From Defluviitaleaceae bacterium (GTDB lineage Bacteria; Bacillota; Clostridia; Lachnospirales; WQUN01): a stretch of DNA of 49,930 bases. The position numbers and the translations under genes were made by a program. The notes beneath the pieces were generated by a model. It saw only the letters and a program-made list of their open reading frames with translations, ran no database searches and was not told the DNA's origin. Shown piece by piece: positions 2,698 through 48,496 of this stretch. Location of the stretch: the NCBI GenBank assembly GCA_009781765.1, contig WQVC01000006.1:1-49930 (forward strand), written 5' to 3'. How positions within the stretch are numbered: the first letter of the stretch is position 1; every line of letters starts with the position of its first letter.

Positions 2698-3462
2698 GAG
2701 GCACGTCAAAAAAGGCGACCGGCTCTCTCGAAAATTTCGAGAACGCGCGAACGCACTTGAAGAAGCCCGAACGCTCGCAAGGGCGTCCGCTGTATGTAAT
2801 CGGATGTTCCGATTTGGCTGCTTTGATTTTTATTTGATTGGCTTTTTTTAAGTAAGTAACCGAAGTCCCGGGAGCTTCGGCAGGTTGCCGCTTCATATAA
2901 AAGGTGTGCACGTGGGCGTCAACATTCGGTCGGCCGTGTCCGAACGGGTCTGCCCTCTTTCATATAATGCGGCGGGTGTTGCAGTTGTTGCTGTGGTACG
3001 GGTGAAGCATTGGTGGTACAGGTACTGCATGGTGGTACGGTGAAGCGTGGTGTTGCGGTGTTACAAGGCGCAACCGTTATACAGCGGCTTCGGCACGGAG
3101 CGGTGCGGTCAGTTTCAGGGCGAACCCCTTCCTGAGATGGCAAAACACGTCCTTTGGCATGAAAGCGACTGCTTTGTTTCTCGGTTGCAGGGCAAGTATA
3201 CTTCAACTCTCATGCGCAGATATCCGGAACCGTTCCGGGAAATTTTCCAGGAATTTTTCCCGGAGCGGAAGCGACTGCTTTGCCGATATCGCGGTTTGCG
3301 CTTCGGTACGTAAAACTTGCTATGCATGTACGCAAATTTTACGCACGTTTTGGCAAACCGCAATATGTTTTCTCCGCCGGCATGATTTCAGCCCCTCCCC
3401 GCATATACTGAAACAGCAATTTTGTTTTGTGCGGAATTGCTCTATTGAAGGGGCTGATTAAA
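2698..3462. other. 765 bp without a supportable gene
   Basis: Several short open frames exist on both strands but none has a good ribosome site, a recognisable domain or consistent codon use. The stretch holds small palindromes (for example ATCGGATGTTCCGAT near 2800) and a degenerate tandem repeat at 2992-3056. A short direct repeat, AGCGACTGCTTTG, occurs near 3165 and 3268. It may be decayed coding DNA. I see no clear promoter for the gene at 3463. Confidence 0.5.
2992..3056. repeat. Degenerate ~20 bp tandem repeat (about three copies)
   Basis: The unit is approximately GTGGTACGGGTGAAGCATTG, with later copies reading GTGGTACAGGTACTGCATG and GTGGTACGGTGAAGCGTG. Read on the minus strand in one frame it gives a His/Pro/Tyr-rich peptide (for example ASPYHHAVPVPP) reminiscent of spore-coat-like low-complexity proteins, but no start or complete gene is present. 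Confidence 0.45.
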
Positions 3463-6150
3463 ATGAAACAAATCATTCGCGAGAACATCGCGCAAATGGA
3501 CATTTCGGCGGGCGGCGGGATTTTCGGGCGCAAGGCGCGAATTGATACGATAAATCATCCGGTTCTTGTGCTTGGGCTCGGCGGCACGGGAATCGACGCG
3601 CTTTTGCGGTTGAAATATCAAATAAATCGGCGGTTTAAACTGCCGGATAAAAAATCCAAGCCGGACAATATCGAGTATCTCGCGCTTGAAACAAACGAGC
3701 ATGACCGCAAAAAATATCGCGGCATCTCTCTTGATGCATACACGGAAACCGTTTTGCTCTCGAACGCGGGAATCGGCGCGATTTTGAACAATCGTTCGAC
3801 GCTTCCGGAATATATCAGCACGTGGCTTAACCCCGATTTGACTATCACCGACGGCACAAAAGGTGCAAGCGGAAATCGTCAGGCGGGGCGGCTTTTGCTG
3901 TTCGAAAAAATTAACACCGCTATCGACGCAATTTCAAATAAAATTAAATCGCTGCGCTCCGACCGCGAAAATAAATTGCTTGTGTTTGTGCTTTCGGGGG
4001 TTTCCGGCGGAACGGGCGGCGGTATGTTTTTGGACGTTTCGTACATTGTGCGCGGACTTATGGAGCGCGAATACGGCGCGAAAGGCATCGACAAAGTTGA
4101 AATTACCGGCTATTTATTCACGCCGGACGTGCATCTCGCGGGCAACAACATGAGCATCCACACCGAGGAATACATACAGCGCAACGGTTATGCCGCCCTC
4201 AAAGAGTTGGATTATTTTATGAATATCGAAGAACGCGGCGAGCGTTTTCATCAAAAATACGGTACACGGCTTGAAGTTAATTCCGCGCTCGCGCCGTTCA
4301 ATTTGTGCCACCTTGTTTCCGCCTGCAATATCGACGGCGTTTTTTTGAAAAATGCCTACGACTACTGCATGAACGTAACGGCGGAAAACATCGTGAACTT
4401 TCTCGCGCTTGAGGACAAGGAAAGCGGCAGCGAATTTGCCGTGCAGGATTATCACAGCAATTTGATTTCGAATATCGCCGCAATGACGAGCAATTTGCCG
4501 CCCGGCGTCGCATCGTGCGCGAATTTTTCCTACAATATAATCGGCGCGTCGGCGGCGATTTTGCCCACCGAGGGCATCAACGCACAACTCGCACACGGCG
4601 TTTTGAACGAAATGAGCGAGATGTTCGACGCAGAACCGGACGATTTCGATTTGCAGGAATTCGCAAAGCCCCTTGAAATTTCCGCGCTCGGAGCAGAGGT
4701 TGCCCGCGCGTTGCCGCCGATTAAGCTCGACTATGCCGAAACGGATTATTTCAGCCACCGCAACGTCGTCAAAACGCGCCGCGTTGACGTTGACGAAAAA
4801 CTTGCCGAGCAATTTGCCGCCGCAAAACGCGAACTCTCCAAGGTTGGCGCGGTTGAAATTATCGAGCGCGTTAAGGCGGATTTGCGCGAAGTTTTCACCG
4901 ACCCTGCGCGCGGCGCATTTTACACGACACGAATAATTTCCGGCGAAACAAATCCCTGCTTGCTCGCGAGAATCGGCGCGTACACAACCCACTTACGCGA
5001 AAAAATCGACGCAACCGCACACGAAACCGATGCCCTCGAAGTCGCTTGCGAAACCCGTTTCGAAGAGGCGGCAAAAGCAATCTTCTCAAAAGAAAGCAAA
5101 AAAAATGCCTACATTGAGGCGAAAGTTGCGGTATATCAATCCCGCCTGCAACGGGAAATTTTCATTCGGCTCATAGACATTTACAAAGAAATTCATAACG
5201 CCCTTGAACGCGAAAACGACAGCACGTATTCTGTTTACGCCGAGGTTTTGCGCGAAGTTCGCAGAATTTTTGAGCGTAACGCGGAAATTGTCGCCAAGCC
5301 GGACACGTCGCAGCGCACATTCGACCACGCGGTTATTTCCGTTTCGGAACTTGTGCCGGAAATCGAAAATATTTTACACGAATCGGGACGAGATTATATC
5401 ACGCACGATTTTTTAAAAGCCCTTCTCAACAATCCCGACGACATAAACCAAACAATTTCGGATTTCATATTTGACAAATTCGGCACGTTTTTAACGCGCT
5501 CCATGTCGGAATTTTTCAGTCGCAACGGCGAGCGAACCGCCGAACACGTTGTTGAATCGGAAATCGCGCCCCGTTTGTATCGTGACGCAAAACCGATTTT
5601 TCATCTCGACAATACTGCCGGTATTTTTCATTTTCCGAGTTACGGCATGGTCAGCGTGCCGAAAAATACGCAGGAAATTTTGCGCGGAATCGAAGCATAT
5701 CAAGGTCACGCGCTTGCAAATTTGCGCTTTAACATCCGCAAAAGTTCCATCGCCGACCGAATTTTTTGGCTTAACACGCAAAACGGCATCCCGCTTTTCG
5801 CATACGCGCCGATTCGCGTTTACGAGGAACTCTACGAGCGCACAATCGAAACCCGCGAGGGGGTCGGGCGACATTTAGTAATGAACGAGCGCGAAAATTG
5901 GATGAACTTGCCGTCGCCGTTGCCGGAAAAATTTTGGGGCGATACGTATTCAAACGCCCGGCAAAAAGCCGCCAACGACGAAGCCCGAAAAGTTTTTCGC
6001 CAAGGGATGCAGTACGAAACCCTCAAAAAGAACACCGACGAAAATTTTTTCATCCGCTATCCCAATTTAATCGAGCGAACCCGCCGCGAAAACGAAAAGC
6101 ACATCGAGCTTTCAAAAGTTACGTGGATGGCCAAGGGTGCGTCGGGTTAA
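3463..6150 (+). CDS. Large tubulin/FtsZ-fold protein (Tubulin_2-like, 895 aa)
   Basis: GLGGTG at about residues 38-43 and SGGTGGG at about 181-187, preceded by LLVFVLSGV, are the N-terminal glycine loop and the tubulin/FtsZ GGGTG(S/G)G nucleotide-binding signature. The rest, some 700 residues, is much longer than FtsZ (~350-400) and looks mostly helical and charged, as in the bacterial tubulin-like family of Pfam Tubulin_2. It probably binds GTP and may form filaments, but its cell function is unknown. I chose ATG 3463 because a GAAGGGG site lies about 9 bases upstream; an in-frame non-ATG start at 3427 has no such site. In other genomes such genes often adjoin VWA-domain genes; none is near here. 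A hairpin cassette follows the stop. Confidence 0.8.
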   Translation: MKQIIRENIAQMDISAGGGIFGRKARIDTINHPVLVLGLGGTGIDALLRLKYQINRRFKLPDKKSKPDNIEYLALETNEHDRKKYRGISLDAYTETVLLSNAGIGAILNNRSTLPEYISTWLNPDLTITDGTKGASGNRQAGRLLLFEKINTAIDAISNKIKSLRSDRENKLLVFVLSGVSGGTGGGMFLDVSYIVRGLMEREYGAKGIDKVEITGYLFTPDVHLAGNNMSIHTEEYIQRNGYAALKELDYFMNIEERGERFHQKYGTRLEVNSALAPFNLCHLVSACNIDGVFLKNAYDYCMNVTAENIVNFLALEDKESGSEFAVQDYHSNLISNIAAMTSNLPPGVASCANFSYNIIGASAAILPTEGINAQLAHGVLNEMSEMFDAEPDDFDLQEFAKPLEISALGAEVARALPPIKLDYAETDYFSHRNVVKTRRVDVDEKLAEQFAAAKRELSKVGAVEIIERVKADLREVFTDPARGAFYTTRIISGETNPCLLARIGAYTTHLREKIDATAHETDALEVACETRFEEAAKAIFSKESKKNAYIEAKVAVYQSRLQREIFIRLIDIYKEIHNALERENDSTYSVYAEVLREVRRIFERNAEIVAKPDTSQRTFDHAVISVSELVPEIENILHESGRDYITHDFLKALLNNPDDINQTISDFIFDKFGTFLTRSMSEFFSRNGERTAEHVVESEIAPRLYRDAKPIFHLDNTAGIFHFPSYGMVSVPKNTQEILRGIEAYQGHALANLRFNIRKSSIADRIFWLNTQNGIPLFAYAPIRVYEELYERTIETREGVGRHLVMNERENWMNLPSPLPEKFWGDTYSNARQKAANDEARKVFRQGMQYETLKKNTDENFFIRYPNLIERTRRENEKHIELSKVTWMAKGASG

Positions 6151-6161
6151 AATTGTAAAAT

Positions 6162-6350
6162 TCTCGGGGGCTTCGCCCCCGAACCCTCACGAACTTTTTT
6201 AGAAAAAAGTTCGACAAAAAATCCAAAAATCGCGCATTTGCGCGATTTTATGATGGGGTCAAGGGGACATTGTCCCCTTGCAGGGGTTTGGGGACGGAGT
6301 CCCCAAGGTCTTTAGTAAGTGCATACGAGGCGGAGTCCCCGAGGTCTTAA
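6162..6350 (+). repeat. Hairpin cassette A (multi-palindrome intergenic repeat)
   Basis: Five consecutive perfect or near-perfect hairpins: CGGGGG/CCCCCG around CTTCG (6165-6181), CGAACTTTTTT/AAAAAAGTTCG (6190-6213), AAAATCGCGC/GCGCGATTTT (6226-6249), CAAGGGGAC/GTCCCCTTG (6260-6280) and TTGGGGAC/GTCCCCAA (6288-6306). It ends in GAGGTCTTAA, like the edges of other copies. The third hairpin probably terminates the tubulin-like transcript. Confidence 0.85.
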
Positions 6351-35188: not shown

Positions 35189-36028
35189 ATGGCAATAATA
35201 ATAATCACCCTGCTGATTATGGTATTATTTGCGGGGTGTACAGCCGCGCAGCAAGATTTTTACATCCGAAACGAGTCGGACTTCGTTTTGCGTGACATAC
35301 TTGAAACTCAAAATCCCGCTTTTGAAGGGGATTATTTACATACTAATGATGTGCAATGTGAAGCAGAGTTGCTGTATCAAACGTTTTTGGAATCGGATTA
35401 TTGGTTGCGAGTGCGTTGCTTTCAATGCTGCGGAAATTTGATGCAAATTCCTGATTGCGGCAATTGGAGAGTCACTGATAAAAAGATATTTGATTTTGAT
35501 GGTGTGCCGAATCTTTGGTTCAGAGCTGTGTGGAGCGAAGAGGATTTTATTTCGCCGAGGTGGTCCGGTTCAATAACCGGGTTTGCGACAGTTGAAGCCG
35601 GCGAAGTGGTGCTGTTGTTAAGCGGCTATACCTCCGGCGGAAGCATAGGCGGGGATTTTGTTGCGTTCGGATATTACGCGGAAACATCTGAATATGTAAT
35701 CGTACTTCGTAGTTTTTCGGGCGGCTTTGGGGGCAATTATATCGGCGCAAGTATTTATTCTGTGCGAGCCGGCGGGCTGACAAGATTGCATCAGATTGCG
35801 TACACATATTTTTGGGCATCTCACCATGGCGGAGAAGGAGAACATATATTCGAAGTGAATGGTGAAAGGGTTTGTTATGATGTTTACGCTCAAATTGCAA
35901 ACCGCGTTGAAGCTCGTGACTTTCCGCCTTACCGTCGCAATTTCCAAGGGCGTTCGTTAGAAACGCACGACAAACAGCATGAACAAGATTTGGGGGGCTT
36001 CGCCCCCAAGCCCCCACCCGCTTTTTAA
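35189..36028 (+). CDS. Hypothetical lipoprotein (279 aa) with repeat-derived C-terminus
   Basis: MAIIIITLLIMVLFAGC is a lipoprotein signal with lipobox FAGC. The mature part contains two CC/C.C-type Cys pairs and Gly-rich strands, but I recognise no family. The ATG at 35189 has GGGGCG upstream and starts 20 bp after fliP, so it is transcribed with the flagellar operon without being a known flagellar gene. The last ~40 codons look borrowed: 35903-35929 resembles a hairpin-element arm, and the final LGGFAPKPPPAF is encoded by cassette C. The original stop was probably upstream. Confidence 0.65.
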   Translation: MAIIIITLLIMVLFAGCTAAQQDFYIRNESDFVLRDILETQNPAFEGDYLHTNDVQCEAELLYQTFLESDYWLRVRCFQCCGNLMQIPDCGNWRVTDKKIFDFDGVPNLWFRAVWSEEDFISPRWSGSITGFATVEAGEVVLLLSGYTSGGSIGGDFVAFGYYAETSEYVIVLRSFSGGFGGNYIGASIYSVRAGGLTRLHQIAYTYFWASHHGGEGEHIFEVNGERVCYDVYAQIANRVEARDFPPYRRNFQGRSLETHDKQHEQDLGGFAPKPPPAF

Positions 36029-36116
36029 AAAAAGCGGGGCAAAAATTATCAAAAATCGCGCGAAGCGCGATTTTTAAGAAAGTTTGTGGGGTGCGGGCGA
36101 AGCCCTGTGGTTTTAG
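35989..36116 (+). repeat. Hairpin cassette C
   Basis: TTGGGGG/CCCCCAA around a CTTCG top, CCCGCTTTTT/AAAAAGCGGG, AAAAATCGCGC/GCGCGATTTTT and a right edge GTGGTTTTAG. It is flanked by a perfect 10 bp inverted repeat: CACGACAAAC (35966-35975) and GTTTGTCGTG (36120-36129). Confidence 0.8.
36051..36075. terminator. Bidirectional terminator inside cassette C
   Basis: An 11 bp perfect stem AAAAATCGCGC/GCGCGATTTTT with loop GAA, placed between the convergent lipoprotein (plus) and ispG (minus) genes. Confidence 0.65.
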
Positions 36117-37250: not shown

Positions 37251-37465
37251 CCGTGTGGGCTTCGCCCCCACGCCCCCACGAACTTTTTGGAAAAAGTTCG
37301 ACAAAAACTTATAAAATCGCGCTAACGCGCGATTTTGGGTTGCGAATGGGGAACACTTGCCACACGACTCAAAGAAACCGCGCGAAGCGCGGTTTCTGAT
37401 AAAGTTTTTGCCCCGCTTTTTTCAAAAAGCGGGTGGGGTGCGGGGTGAAGCCCCGCGGTCTTAAC
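37251..37465. repeat. Hairpin cassette D
   Basis: GTGGG/CCCAC around CTTCG, CGAACTTTTT/AAAAAGTTCG (37279-37300), AAAATCGCGC/GCGCGATTTT (37313-37336), GAAACCGCGC/GCGCGGTTTC (37374-37396), CCCCGCTTTTT/AAAAAGCGGG (37411-37433) and GCGGGG/CCCCGC, ending GGTCTTAAC at 37465. Together with the element at 37474 it fills the entire ispG-reductase spacer. Confidence 0.85.
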
Positions 37466-38513: not shown

Positions 38514-40610
38514 TCATGCGAACCGCGCCGCAAATTCGTCTTCATCAATAACGGGAACGTCAAGCGCGGCGGCTTTTTTATTTTTCGCCGACGCCGATTT
38601 TGCATCATTATTTATCAAAAACGACGTTTTCGCCGTGACGCTTCCGGTTACGCGCCCGCCCGCGTTTTCGATGAAACCCTGCAATTCTTTGCGATTTTTA
38701 AATCGCGTAACGTCGCCGGTAATAACAAAAGTAAGCCCGGCAAGAGGGCGATTTTCGCCCGCCGCCGCAGTAGGGGAGGGGATGCGCAGAATTTCCGAAA
38801 CGCGGTCGAATTGCCGGCGATTCTCCGGATGCGAAAAGTATTCGTGCAAGCTGCGCGAAATCGCTTCGCCGAAGCCCTTTATTTCCGCCAATTCAGAATC
38901 TTCGCCCGCGCAAACGTCGGCGATTTTTTTTGCGTCATGCCCGAAATGCGCACACAACAACTTTGCGTTCGCAAGCCCAACATGTCGAATGCCGAGCGCG
39001 TAAATGAAATTCGGCAGCCGAACGTCTTTCGCCGCTTCAATGCTGCGGAGCAGCTTCTCGTATGATTTTTCCCCGAAACCCTCCGTTTGCAGAATTTCGT
39101 CCCGATGCCTCTCAAGCTCAAACAGGTCCAAAAAATTCGTAACGAACCCGCGCGATGCAAATTTTTCAAGCGTCTGCTCGCTCAATCCGGCGATATTCAT
39201 TGCGTCGCGACTCACAAAGTGCGCCAGCCCGCCAACAAGCTGCGCGGGGCAACCGGCATTTGTGCAATAAAGAACCTCGGGGCTTGCCGCGCGTTTATCG
39301 GGTTCGCTCCCGGTAATTTCCGTCGCGCCGCCGCAAACGGGGCAAACCTCCGGCGGTTCGTCGGCCGCGCCGCCGCTTAAATTTTCCGCCACTTGCGGAA
39401 TAATCATGTTTGCCTTGTACACGCTGATTCTGTCGCCTTTTTTCAGCCCGAGTCCGCGCAAAATACTGACATTATGCAAGCTCGCGCGACTCACAACCGT
39501 TCCTTCAATTTCGACCGGCTCGAACACCGCAACGGGATTCACAAGCCCCGTTCGCGACGTACTCCATTCGATGTCCGCGAGCGTTGTTTCCGCGATTTCA
39601 TCCGCCCACTTGAACGCCAAGCTGTCGCGCGGAAATTTCGACGTCGCTCCGAGCGACCGGCTGTACGAAACATCATCATACGTAAGAACAAGCCCGTCAG
39701 ACATCAGCTCCGCGCTCGAAATTTTCGATTTAAACCGCGCAACCGCCTCAACGACATTCTCCGCCGTAACCTGTTCATACTCCGCAACCTCAAAGCCCTG
39801 CGCGGCAAGCCACTTCAATTGCTCAGATTTTTTTCCGAGGCTTTCGGGGGAAACTTTTTTTAAAAAAAAAGTTTCCCCCGAACCCCCTTCAAAAAAATTA
39901 TCATCGGAAACCGCGTGAAACGCGGTTTCCTGTGTTTTTGTCGAACTTTTTTCAAAAAGTTCGTGGGGTTCGGGGCGAAGCCCCGAAAACTCATCCTTAA
40001 TCGAAAAAGCAAAAAATTTTACGCGCCTCTGAGCGGTGACTTCGTTGTTGAGTTGGCGAACAGCCCCGCTGCATAAATTGCGCGGATTTTTGTATTCGCC
40101 GGATTTGTTGATTTCATTGAAGTCGGCGATAGAAATGACGGCTTCGCCGCGAATGTCGAATCGCCCCTTGTGCGGAACGGTTAGGGGGATGTTTGTGAAA
40201 ACGCGGGCATTGTGCGTGACGTCTTCGCCGATACTGCCGTTTCCGCGTGTGAGGGCGCGAACGAGTTCGCCGTTGTTGTAGCGCAAAACAATCGTCAAGC
40301 CGTCCAACTTCCACGATAATAAGCCCTCATGCTCTCCGAGGAAAGCGATAAGGGCGGCCGGGTCTTTTGTTTTGTCGAGGGAAAGCATCGGCGTGTCGTG
40401 GGGGGCTTTTTGCAGGCTGCCCACAACTTCGTAGCCGACTTTGCGCGTGGGGCTTCCGGCAAGTTGAATGCCGGTTTCGGCTTCGAGCCGAACAAGCTCG
40501 TCGTATAAATTGTCGTATTCGAGATTCGAAATAATTTCGCGATTTTCATGGTAATATGCGCGGTTTGCGGCGTTGAGTTGCGCCGAAAGTTCTTTTATGC
40601 GACCAATCAT
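38514..40610 (-). CDS. ligA: NAD+-dependent DNA ligase LigA with an in-frame repeat insertion (698 aa)
   Basis: Seals nicks in replication and repair. Domains: Ia (residues 1-60), adenylation with active-site Lys101 in SWKLDGLT (KLDG rather than the common KIDG), KNPRNLCSGAVRQLN, OB fold, a four-Cys zinc finger (CPVCGG ... YCTNAGCPAQ), helix-hairpin-helix repeats and a C-terminal BRCT domain (LAGLTFVITGDVTRFKNR). Residues about 205-259 interrupt the usual link between FFAFSI and KKSEQLKWLAAQGFEV and are encoded by hairpin cassette E (39836-39990). The frame stays open through it. The ATG at 40610 overlaps the upstream gene's stop. The excess length over a typical ~650 aa matches the insertion. 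Confidence 0.95.
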   Translation of the reverse strand: MIGRIKELSAQLNAANRAYYHENREIISNLEYDNLYDELVRLEAETGIQLAGSPTRKVGYEVVGSLQKAPHDTPMLSLDKTKDPAALIAFLGEHEGLLSWKLDGLTIVLRYNNGELVRALTRGNGSIGEDVTHNARVFTNIPLTVPHKGRFDIRGEAVISIADFNEINKSGEYKNPRNLCSGAVRQLNNEVTAQRRVKFFAFSIKDEFSGLRPEPHELFEKSSTKTQETAFHAVSDDNFFEGGSGETFFLKKVSPESLGKKSEQLKWLAAQGFEVAEYEQVTAENVVEAVARFKSKISSAELMSDGLVLTYDDVSYSRSLGATSKFPRDSLAFKWADEIAETTLADIEWSTSRTGLVNPVAVFEPVEIEGTVVSRASLHNVSILRGLGLKKGDRISVYKANMIIPQVAENLSGGAADEPPEVCPVCGGATEITGSEPDKRAASPEVLYCTNAGCPAQLVGGLAHFVSRDAMNIAGLSEQTLEKFASRGFVTNFLDLFELERHRDEILQTEGFGEKSYEKLLRSIEAAKDVRLPNFIYALGIRHVGLANAKLLCAHFGHDAKKIADVCAGEDSELAEIKGFGEAISRSLHEYFSHPENRRQFDRVSEILRIPSPTAAAGENRPLAGLTFVITGDVTRFKNRKELQGFIENAGGRVTGSVTAKTSFLINNDAKSASAKNKKAAALDVPVIDEDEFAARFA
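39836..39990. repeat. Hairpin cassette E, inside ligA
   Basis: CGGGGGAAACTTTTTTT/AAAAAAGTTTCCCCCG (39845-39880), GGAAACCGCG/CGCGGTTTCC (39906-39930), GAACTTTTTT/AAAAAGTTC (39943-39963) and TTCGGGGC/GCCCCGAA (39970-39988). These are the same hairpin types as in the intergenic cassettes A, B, C, D and F. Its length keeps the ligA frame. Confidence 0.9.
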
Positions 40611-48372: not shown

Positions 48373-48496
48373 CAAAAATCGCGCATTCGCGCGATTTTCG
48401 TTAAAGTTTTTGCCCCGCTTTTAAAGGTCGAAGCGAGCGTTTCCCGCGCCACCCTTCAAAAAGCGGAATGGGGGCGTGGGGGGCAAAGCCCCCACA
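48373..48496. repeat. Hairpin cassette F, with a split last hairpin
   Basis: AAAATCGCGC/GCGCGATTTT (48375-48398) is intact and GTGGGGG/CCCCCAC (48476-48495) closes the cassette. The CCCCGCTTTT/AAAAAGCGG pair is split by about 35 bp of foreign sequence (AAAGGTCGAAGCGAGCGTTT and on). Confidence 0.75.

Follow-up and report, generated by a model that had tools for sequence, protein, structure and literature searches.

A shortened FtsZl1-type tubulin homologue in a termite-gut Defluviitaleaceae bacterium, likely derived from a dispersed DO-GTPase/GAP1-N2 system

The window, i.e., the whole stretch of 49,930 nucleotides that was analyzed, belongs to the draft genome of a Defluviitaleaceae bacterium (G000; other G-numbers denote draft genomes of the termite-gut family, and C-numbers contigs) and carries a gene for a large tubulin-like protein. 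We regard it as likely, if far from certain, that this gene encodes the nucleotide-binding subunit of a tubulin-type DO-GTPase/GAP1-N2 system, the operon of which came apart in a family of Defluviitaleaceae-like termite-gut bacteria. The best reading of the sequence data would be that of a GTP-dependent scaffold subunit, dispersed and vertically inherited, and the tubulin is probably still part of a GTP-driven, membrane-linked assembly. The gene and its translation signal are located as follows:

3463-6150, + strand: FtsZl1/Tubulin_2 gene, 895 amino acids plus stop codon (ORF calling, Pfam, orthologue comparison)
3447-3453, + strand: ribosome-binding site GAAGGGG, 9 nucleotides before the ATG (sequence)

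The ATG at 3463 opens a frame of 895 codons without internal stop, and the mechanically called open reading frame opens further upstream, with a TTG at 3427. Residues 35-383 of the protein matched positions 1-353 of the 356 of the Pfam Tubulin_2 profile (PF13809) with 222 bits (cut-off 27, E = 1.7e-65), which is far above chance level and, together with structural matches to CetZ and FtsZ, bears out the tubulin/FtsZ fold claimed in the original prediction. Searches of PDB sequences, with the protein alone and with alignment A2, gave zero matches, and PADLOC, PHROGs and NCBIfam returned no meaningful match for the tubulin-like protein. At another place the same genome has an open frame of 406 residues for the canonical FtsZ, and the protein is therefore rightly said to be more than twice the size of FtsZ; as a special trait, its size loses weight, the protein being a shortened member of a family described by PMC2875224 and PMC7159879.

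FtsZl1 proteins belong to the most strongly diverged relatives of tubulin. They were presented as combining an FtsZ-like domain, a coiled coil and a mostly helical C-terminal domain, the first example having 1051 residues and the genes standing in operons with vWA and GTPase genes (Makarova and Koonin, 2010, PMC2875224). In that paper, the C-terminal part is reported to lack similarity to known C-terminal domains, and GTP-dependent polymerization, assumed for the superfamily, is doubted for FtsZl1 by its authors. Following PMC9871819, the family is equated here with Pfam Tubulin_2 and set apart from canonical FtsZ and tubulin. According to Kaur et al. (2020, PMC7159879), tubulin genes of Firmicutes belong to DO-GTPase systems of the GAP1-N2 type, which include two tubulin-domain and two vWA proteins and for which a role in conflict is predicted; a further candidate paper (PMC10067837) was set aside, being unrelated to tubulins of the FtsZl1 kind. 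In the literature searched, most subscription papers lying outside it, we found neither an experimental study of the FtsZl1 family nor polymerization, GTPase or interaction data for it, in agreement with the earlier view that the group is largely uncharacterized; the known family to which the protein belongs is a described one. With this family the protein shares the N-terminal FtsZ-like domain with T1 and T4 loops, the long coiled coil, the large size and, in relatives, the vWA and GTPase partners, and its architecture and partners fit FtsZl1; the window member differs in being short, without adjacent partners, and devoid of the domain with which its orthologues end.

The nucleotide-binding residues are the following:

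3574-3597, + strand: T1 loop, residues 38-45, GLGGTGID (alignments A1, A2)
3997-4023, + strand: T4 loop, residues 179-187, GVSGGTGGG (alignments A1, A2)
4396-4413, + strand: candidate T7 Asn/Glu, N-x4-E, residues 312-317 (alignments; place from the AlphaFold model)

Both loops had been recognized from the start, and their glycines and threonines (G38, G40, G41, T42 and G43 in T1; G179, G182, G183, T184, G185 and G187 in T4) did not vary in any of the 37 rows of alignment A2 or the 20 rows of A1; a loss of GTP-binding residues, which would have spoken against the prediction, was not observed. The T7 loop carries the catalytic glutamate of alpha-tubulin, and a structure prediction had been proposed to check it. 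An N-x4-E motif, which we take to be comparable to N249/E254 of alpha-tubulin, was indeed placed after core helix H7, with N in 36 and E in 37 of the 37 rows of A2 (17 and 19 of 20 in A1); since model confidence is low from residue 317, this candidate T7 catalytic motif is suggestive only.

The partners appear in the relatives. Among the best 80 of 336 confirmed loci, the nearest belong to termite-gut Defluviitaleaceae and Clostridiales MAGs and the next to Paenibacillus, Brevibacillus, Saccharibacillus and Cytobacillus, with 46-48% identity; 65 of these 80 are non-termite loci, and 62 of the latter are Bacillales loci longer than 16 kb. The order vWA1 - FtsZl1 - second tubulin - vWA2 was found in all 62, c2 and the GTPase were also present in 59, and the start of GAP1 was visible in 42, the 7 kb flank often cutting this gene. 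The ancestral operon would accordingly have read vWA1 - FtsZl1 - second tubulin-fold protein - vWA2 - small protein c2 - DO-GTPase - GAP1. Its parts, named by Pfam as VWA, DO-GTPase2 and GAP1-N2, fit the tubulin-type GAP1-N2 system of Kaur et al. (PMC7159879). One of the 15 termite-family loci (five of them shorter than 9 kb) retained the whole operon, namely L061, which length and match position identify with contig G011:C178. This survey relied on Brevibacillus queries, which are insensitive in the termite family and were therefore used only for the question of whether the whole operon was kept; queries from G011, more sensitive there, recovered what the former had missed, i.e., in the g11 genomes the second tubulin that adjoins FtsZl1 and in G005 the nearby vWA1.

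In G000 the genes of the system are spread over five contigs and do not form one neighborhood, whereas they are linked in the Bacillales loci and in G011. The tubulin lies on C6, c2 (158 amino acids) and the DO-GTPase (423 amino acids; DO-GTPase2, 34.7 bits vs. a cut-off of 27) on C63, the GAP1 homologue (398 amino acids; E = 8.3e-61 to the Pfam-confirmed GAP1-N2 protein of G015) on C10, vWA1 (439 amino acids, with a signal peptide and a membrane helix recognized by eye) on C45 and the second tubulin (425 amino acids) on C25. A DO-GTPase and a GAP1-N2 homologue, as expected of the system, are present in the genome of the tubulin; as the genes are unlinked, we claim descent from the system and not textbook membership. 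Partner searches of the whole draft matched solely contigs other than that of the window, so that the absence of partner genes next to the gene, as originally stated, is right for the window. The word "solitary" holds locally and fails genome-wide, where a DO-GTPase, a GAP1-N2 protein, a vWA protein and a loop-less second tubulin were encountered, and the advice to look for VWA genes elsewhere in the genome was rewarded with the vWA1 homologue on C45.

Like the Bacillales relatives, which possess two coiled-coil tubulins, two vWA proteins, a DO-GTPase and a GAP1-N2 protein, the window's genome has homologues of four partner types; unlike them, its genes lie on several contigs, most of the proteins are shortened and vWA2 was not found. 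Compared with G011 or Brevibacillus, vWA1, the second tubulin, GAP1 and c2 are shorter in G000, while the GTPase is unshortened (423 amino acids vs. 421 and 416). A full-length vWA2 of the operon type was found only in G011 among 23 genomes, and not in the G000 draft, the remaining matches to the vWA2 query covering just the vWA domain of other proteins. Judged from gene order, the fragmentation of the operon looks stepwise: the second tubulin still adjoins FtsZl1 in five g11 genomes (G019, G031, G034, G036, G061), GAP1 and the GTPase have remained neighbors in G003-G007, G011, G015, G019, G021, G029, G031, G034, G036 and G061 and lie on separate contigs in G000 and G002, and in G005 a vWA1 homologue shares the contig of the tubulin, about 4 kb away from it on the opposite strand. 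Of the 11 draft genomes examined, only G015, G021, G034 and G036 have tubulin and GTPase separated for certain by 35 kb or more, the certain distance in G019 being 18 kb; should contigs abut in the draft assemblies, the minimum distance is 6.7 kb in G000 and 0.5 kb in G002. A Spo0A-type gene immediately precedes the c2-GTPase pair in G000 (Pfam; L141, 1812-4460) and likewise in G002 (sequence cluster; L142, 225-2852), a neighbor hinting at developmental regulation of this pair.

The protein was further divided with the aid of an AlphaFold model, from which the names of the secondary elements were read by their order:

3553-4611, + strand: nucleotide-binding half through core helix H7, S7 and H9, residues 31-383 (Pfam, AlphaFold, PDB alignment)
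4615-5607, + strand: helical and coiled-coil insertion, residues 385-715 (AlphaFold model)
5620-5880, + strand: strands and helix (S8, H10, S9, S10) finishing the tubulin fold, residues 720-806 (model, PDB alignment)
5881-6147, + strand: helical tail, residues 807-895 (model, orthologue comparison)

The window protein was modeled with moderate confidence (pLDDT 72, pTM 0.58, 37 sequences), pLDDT falling below 50 in the T7 region and in parts of 712-829, and the second tubulin of Brevibacillus with better confidence (pLDDT 84, pTM 0.71, 28 sequences). With alignment candidates drawn only from the Foldseek list, the former superposed on CetZ (3zid_A) with Z 19.4 and rmsd 4.8 over 318 aligned residues, model residues 31-798 falling on chain residues 1-349, and the latter with Z 21.4 and rmsd 3.5 over 294 (35-771 on 1-343); the best Foldseek match of the window model was FtsZ (1w5f_A, E = 3.4e-5). 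An extended coiled coil after the FtsZ-like domain, as expected of FtsZl1, is predicted to be present, with long helices at residues 500-538 and 543-611, and in both proteins S7 and H9 are followed by helices and coiled coil and then by S8-H10-S9-S10, which places the coiled coil within the C-terminal half of the fold. These two models, one for the window protein and one for the second tubulin of Brevibacillus, suggest that the tubulin fold is interrupted by the coiled coil, contrary to the published C-terminal placement of the latter, and the appearance of more tubulin fold after the coiled coil sets the window models apart from the family as described. The long C-terminal region, for which a membrane- or partner-binding role had been considered, is in the model not a simple tail, since the tubulin fold resumes after the insertion, and such a role may fall to the coiled coil. 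The chains of CetZ, TubZ and FtsZ that were matched share the tubulin fold and measure about 290-415 residues, the coiled coil of the window protein being extra. In the second tubulin, G-rich T1 and T4 loops are absent, and the protein matched FtsZl1 at profile level (E = 7e-7, probability 92), which makes it a loop-less paralogue of FtsZl1.

That the protein acts by itself, as a cytoskeletal or cell-shape tubulin comparable to CetZ, with a GTPase and GAP1 unrelated to it in role, would be in line with CetZ heading the structural matches, though other tubulins follow within about 1-2 Z. Across 38 family genomes (presence being set at ≥50% identity for the orthologue and ≥55% for the cognate GTPase), the orthologue was present in 18 and the GTPase in 20, with both in 16 and neither in 16 (Fisher p = 2.4e-5, kinship ignored). 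The tubulin occurred without the GTPase in G001 (96% complete) and G009 (71% complete), and the GTPase without the tubulin in G007 (80% complete), G024, G033 and G035. A GAP1 match was obtained in 16 of the 18 orthologue genomes (a fragment in G009; none in G001 and G008) and a second-tubulin match in 15 (none in G001, G009 and G021), some of the latter being weak (G034, E = 8e-6; G004, 6e-7); vWA1 was searched for in 15 family genomes, with the shortened form in ten, a weaker match in G001, the full form in G011 and none in G002, G008 and G034. A strict partnership is weakened because G001 keeps the tubulin while its cognate GTPase, GAP1 and second tubulin were not found, and because G024, G033 and G035 have the GTPase alone, all of which favors a tubulin acting by itself. 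The recurrence of the cognate GTPase and of GAP1 with the tubulin and the common ancestry in one operon nevertheless make such independence quite unlikely in our view. The cognate-type DO-GTPase of tubulin-less genomes was located, for instance, at 4671-5927 of L184 (G033) and at 4289-5656 of L185 (G024).

The descent of the genes was followed in trees of FtsZl1 (20 rows) and of the GTPase (19 rows), and their main supported clades agree. Both contain G000 with G002 (plus G009 in the tubulin tree), G004 with G006, G015 with G029 (92/88 in the GTPase tree), G031 with G036, and the group of G019, G031, G034 and G036, and in both G011 stands next to the Bacillales; the trees differ in the Bacillales pairings, several nodes are unresolved and G034 has a long branch. 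Between G000 and G002 the tubulin had a dN/dS of 0.11 (dS about 1.0, 891 codons), with 0.06-0.22 in each segment tested, and the GTPase one of 0.055 (dS about 1.4); these values are rough because dS is near 1, and they show the tubulin to be under purifying selection.

The shortened C-terminus might invite the view of a gene in decay, a remnant about to become a pseudogene. Full-length orthologues of the family, 13 in number, measure 1021-1125 residues, and open frames of more than 1000 amino acids were seen for 13 of 16 orthologues in other genomes, the exceptions being G002, G008 and G009, where the contig end cuts the orthologue. The proteins of G000 (895 residues) and G002 (913) end right after a common motif, and that of G008 (941) slightly later; the window protein keeps a helical tail (832-892 in the model) and is without a C-terminal domain of about 170 residues, a loss common to the sister species G002. 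Used as query, this domain found nothing in G000, was placed in G001, G003, G005, G006, G015 and G029, and matched short stubs in G002 and G008, the latter with one weak further match. The remainder of the window protein aligns at 52-73% identity with members having the last domain, and the loss therefore took place within the family. A frameshift or assembly error was rejected as its cause, as G002 ends after the same motif and the domain was not found elsewhere in G000; a link between this loss and the departure of GAP1 from the GTPase, both in G000 and G002 only, is not claimed, being a single event. Decay could draw on these truncations, on the shortening of three partner proteins and c2 and on the failure to find vWA2 in this genome, but the open frame is intact, the loops are invariant, the GTPase is unshortened and the dN/dS was obtained between two species with the common truncation, so that we hold this outcome to be very improbable.

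A second FtsZl1 type, a paralogue of about 31% identity, is encoded in the termite-gut family within an operon vWA - tubulin - cl4 - cl3 - GTPase (L045-L050), of which five of the six loci fetched have all five genes, the sixth starting at a contig end; as these operons are mostly intact, fragmentation is not the fate of every such operon in the family. G000 and G001 are without cl4, which may be the second tubulin of that operon. In line with the proposal of Kaur et al., the system might still be active against phages or in conflict, its scattered gene order being without functional meaning, and its component types are the same as those of the published conflict-system class (PMC7159879). Scattered, vertically inherited genes would be unlike mobile defense cassettes, the paralogue operon has stayed together in the same family, and PADLOC, run on the tubulin and its two upstream neighbors, was silent for the tubulin; we deem ongoing defense unlikely. 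The data suggest that the system has become a resident function of the cell in the termite-gut clade and has ceased to be a mobile defense cassette, a reading that we prefer because the genes are scattered and vertically descended.

As a resident function, the assembly may work as follows. FtsZl1 would bind GTP and assemble into filaments or a scaffold, with the loop-less tubulin probably as a non-catalytic co-subunit in a pair of the alpha/beta type; the coiled coil would project from the filament and reach the membrane vWA protein, and the DO-GTPase with GAP1 would be the switch governing assembly upon an envelope or invader signal. BtubA/B and AtubA/B heterodimers, both among the structural matches, offer a working analogy, having two different tubulin-fold subunits, although here one subunit is without nucleotide loops and co-assembly is a proposal. 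More tentatively, and as a possibility that we rate doubtful, the protein would represent a distinct kind of tubulin, in which a coiled coil of ~330 residues splits both a GTP-binding and a nucleotide-dead subunit, the arms of their hetero-filament reach the membrane vWA protein under control of a second GTPase, and termite-gut bacteria took the cassette apart, slimmed it down and established it as a resident cytoskeletal function. With homologues of the ancestral partners on other contigs, the apparently lone gene offers a naturally trimmed protein set for reconstitution, the models give a testable fold in which the tubulin is split by a coiled coil, and a dispersed clade beside a mostly linked paralogue operon makes it possible to ask whether such systems serve defense or cell biology.

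The surroundings of the gene contain one further element of note:

6163-6255, strand not assigned: interspersed stem-loop repeat just past the shortened 3' end (BLAST)

Diverged copies were located by BLAST at 35993-36074, 37257-37336, 39935-39984 and 48373-48398 of the window, and others lie beside vWA1 (L167) and the second tubulin (L166) and 1.4 kb from GAP1 (L168); a tight repeat pattern matched one palindrome only (6191-6212), the diverged copies resting on BLAST. The repeat could have helped rearrangement, yet it is widespread between genes. Upstream, on the - strand, are a Sel1-repeat protein with an HExxH-like stretch recognized by eye (966-2621), weakly similar to the phage-exclusion protein Lit (NCBIfam E = 2.2e-6, below cut-off; PHROG 8741, E = 2.5e-34), and, following it, a small unknown protein (319-945). 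These divergent Sel1/Lit-like genes were dismissed as partners, having no counterpart in 20 stretches around relatives when genes were clustered at 40% length cover, a setting that may miss diverged genes. Another tubulin-superfamily gene, with a GGGTGSG loop, occupies about 2339-3037 of C146 (L002), a contig of 3.3 kb; it matched Tubulin_2 and the FtsZ profile weakly, and was rejected as a second FtsZl1 given the latter match and its TubZ- or FtsZ-like appearance by eye. With the HTH-like ORF seen by eye upstream of it, this gene perhaps forms a plasmid or phage segregation pair.
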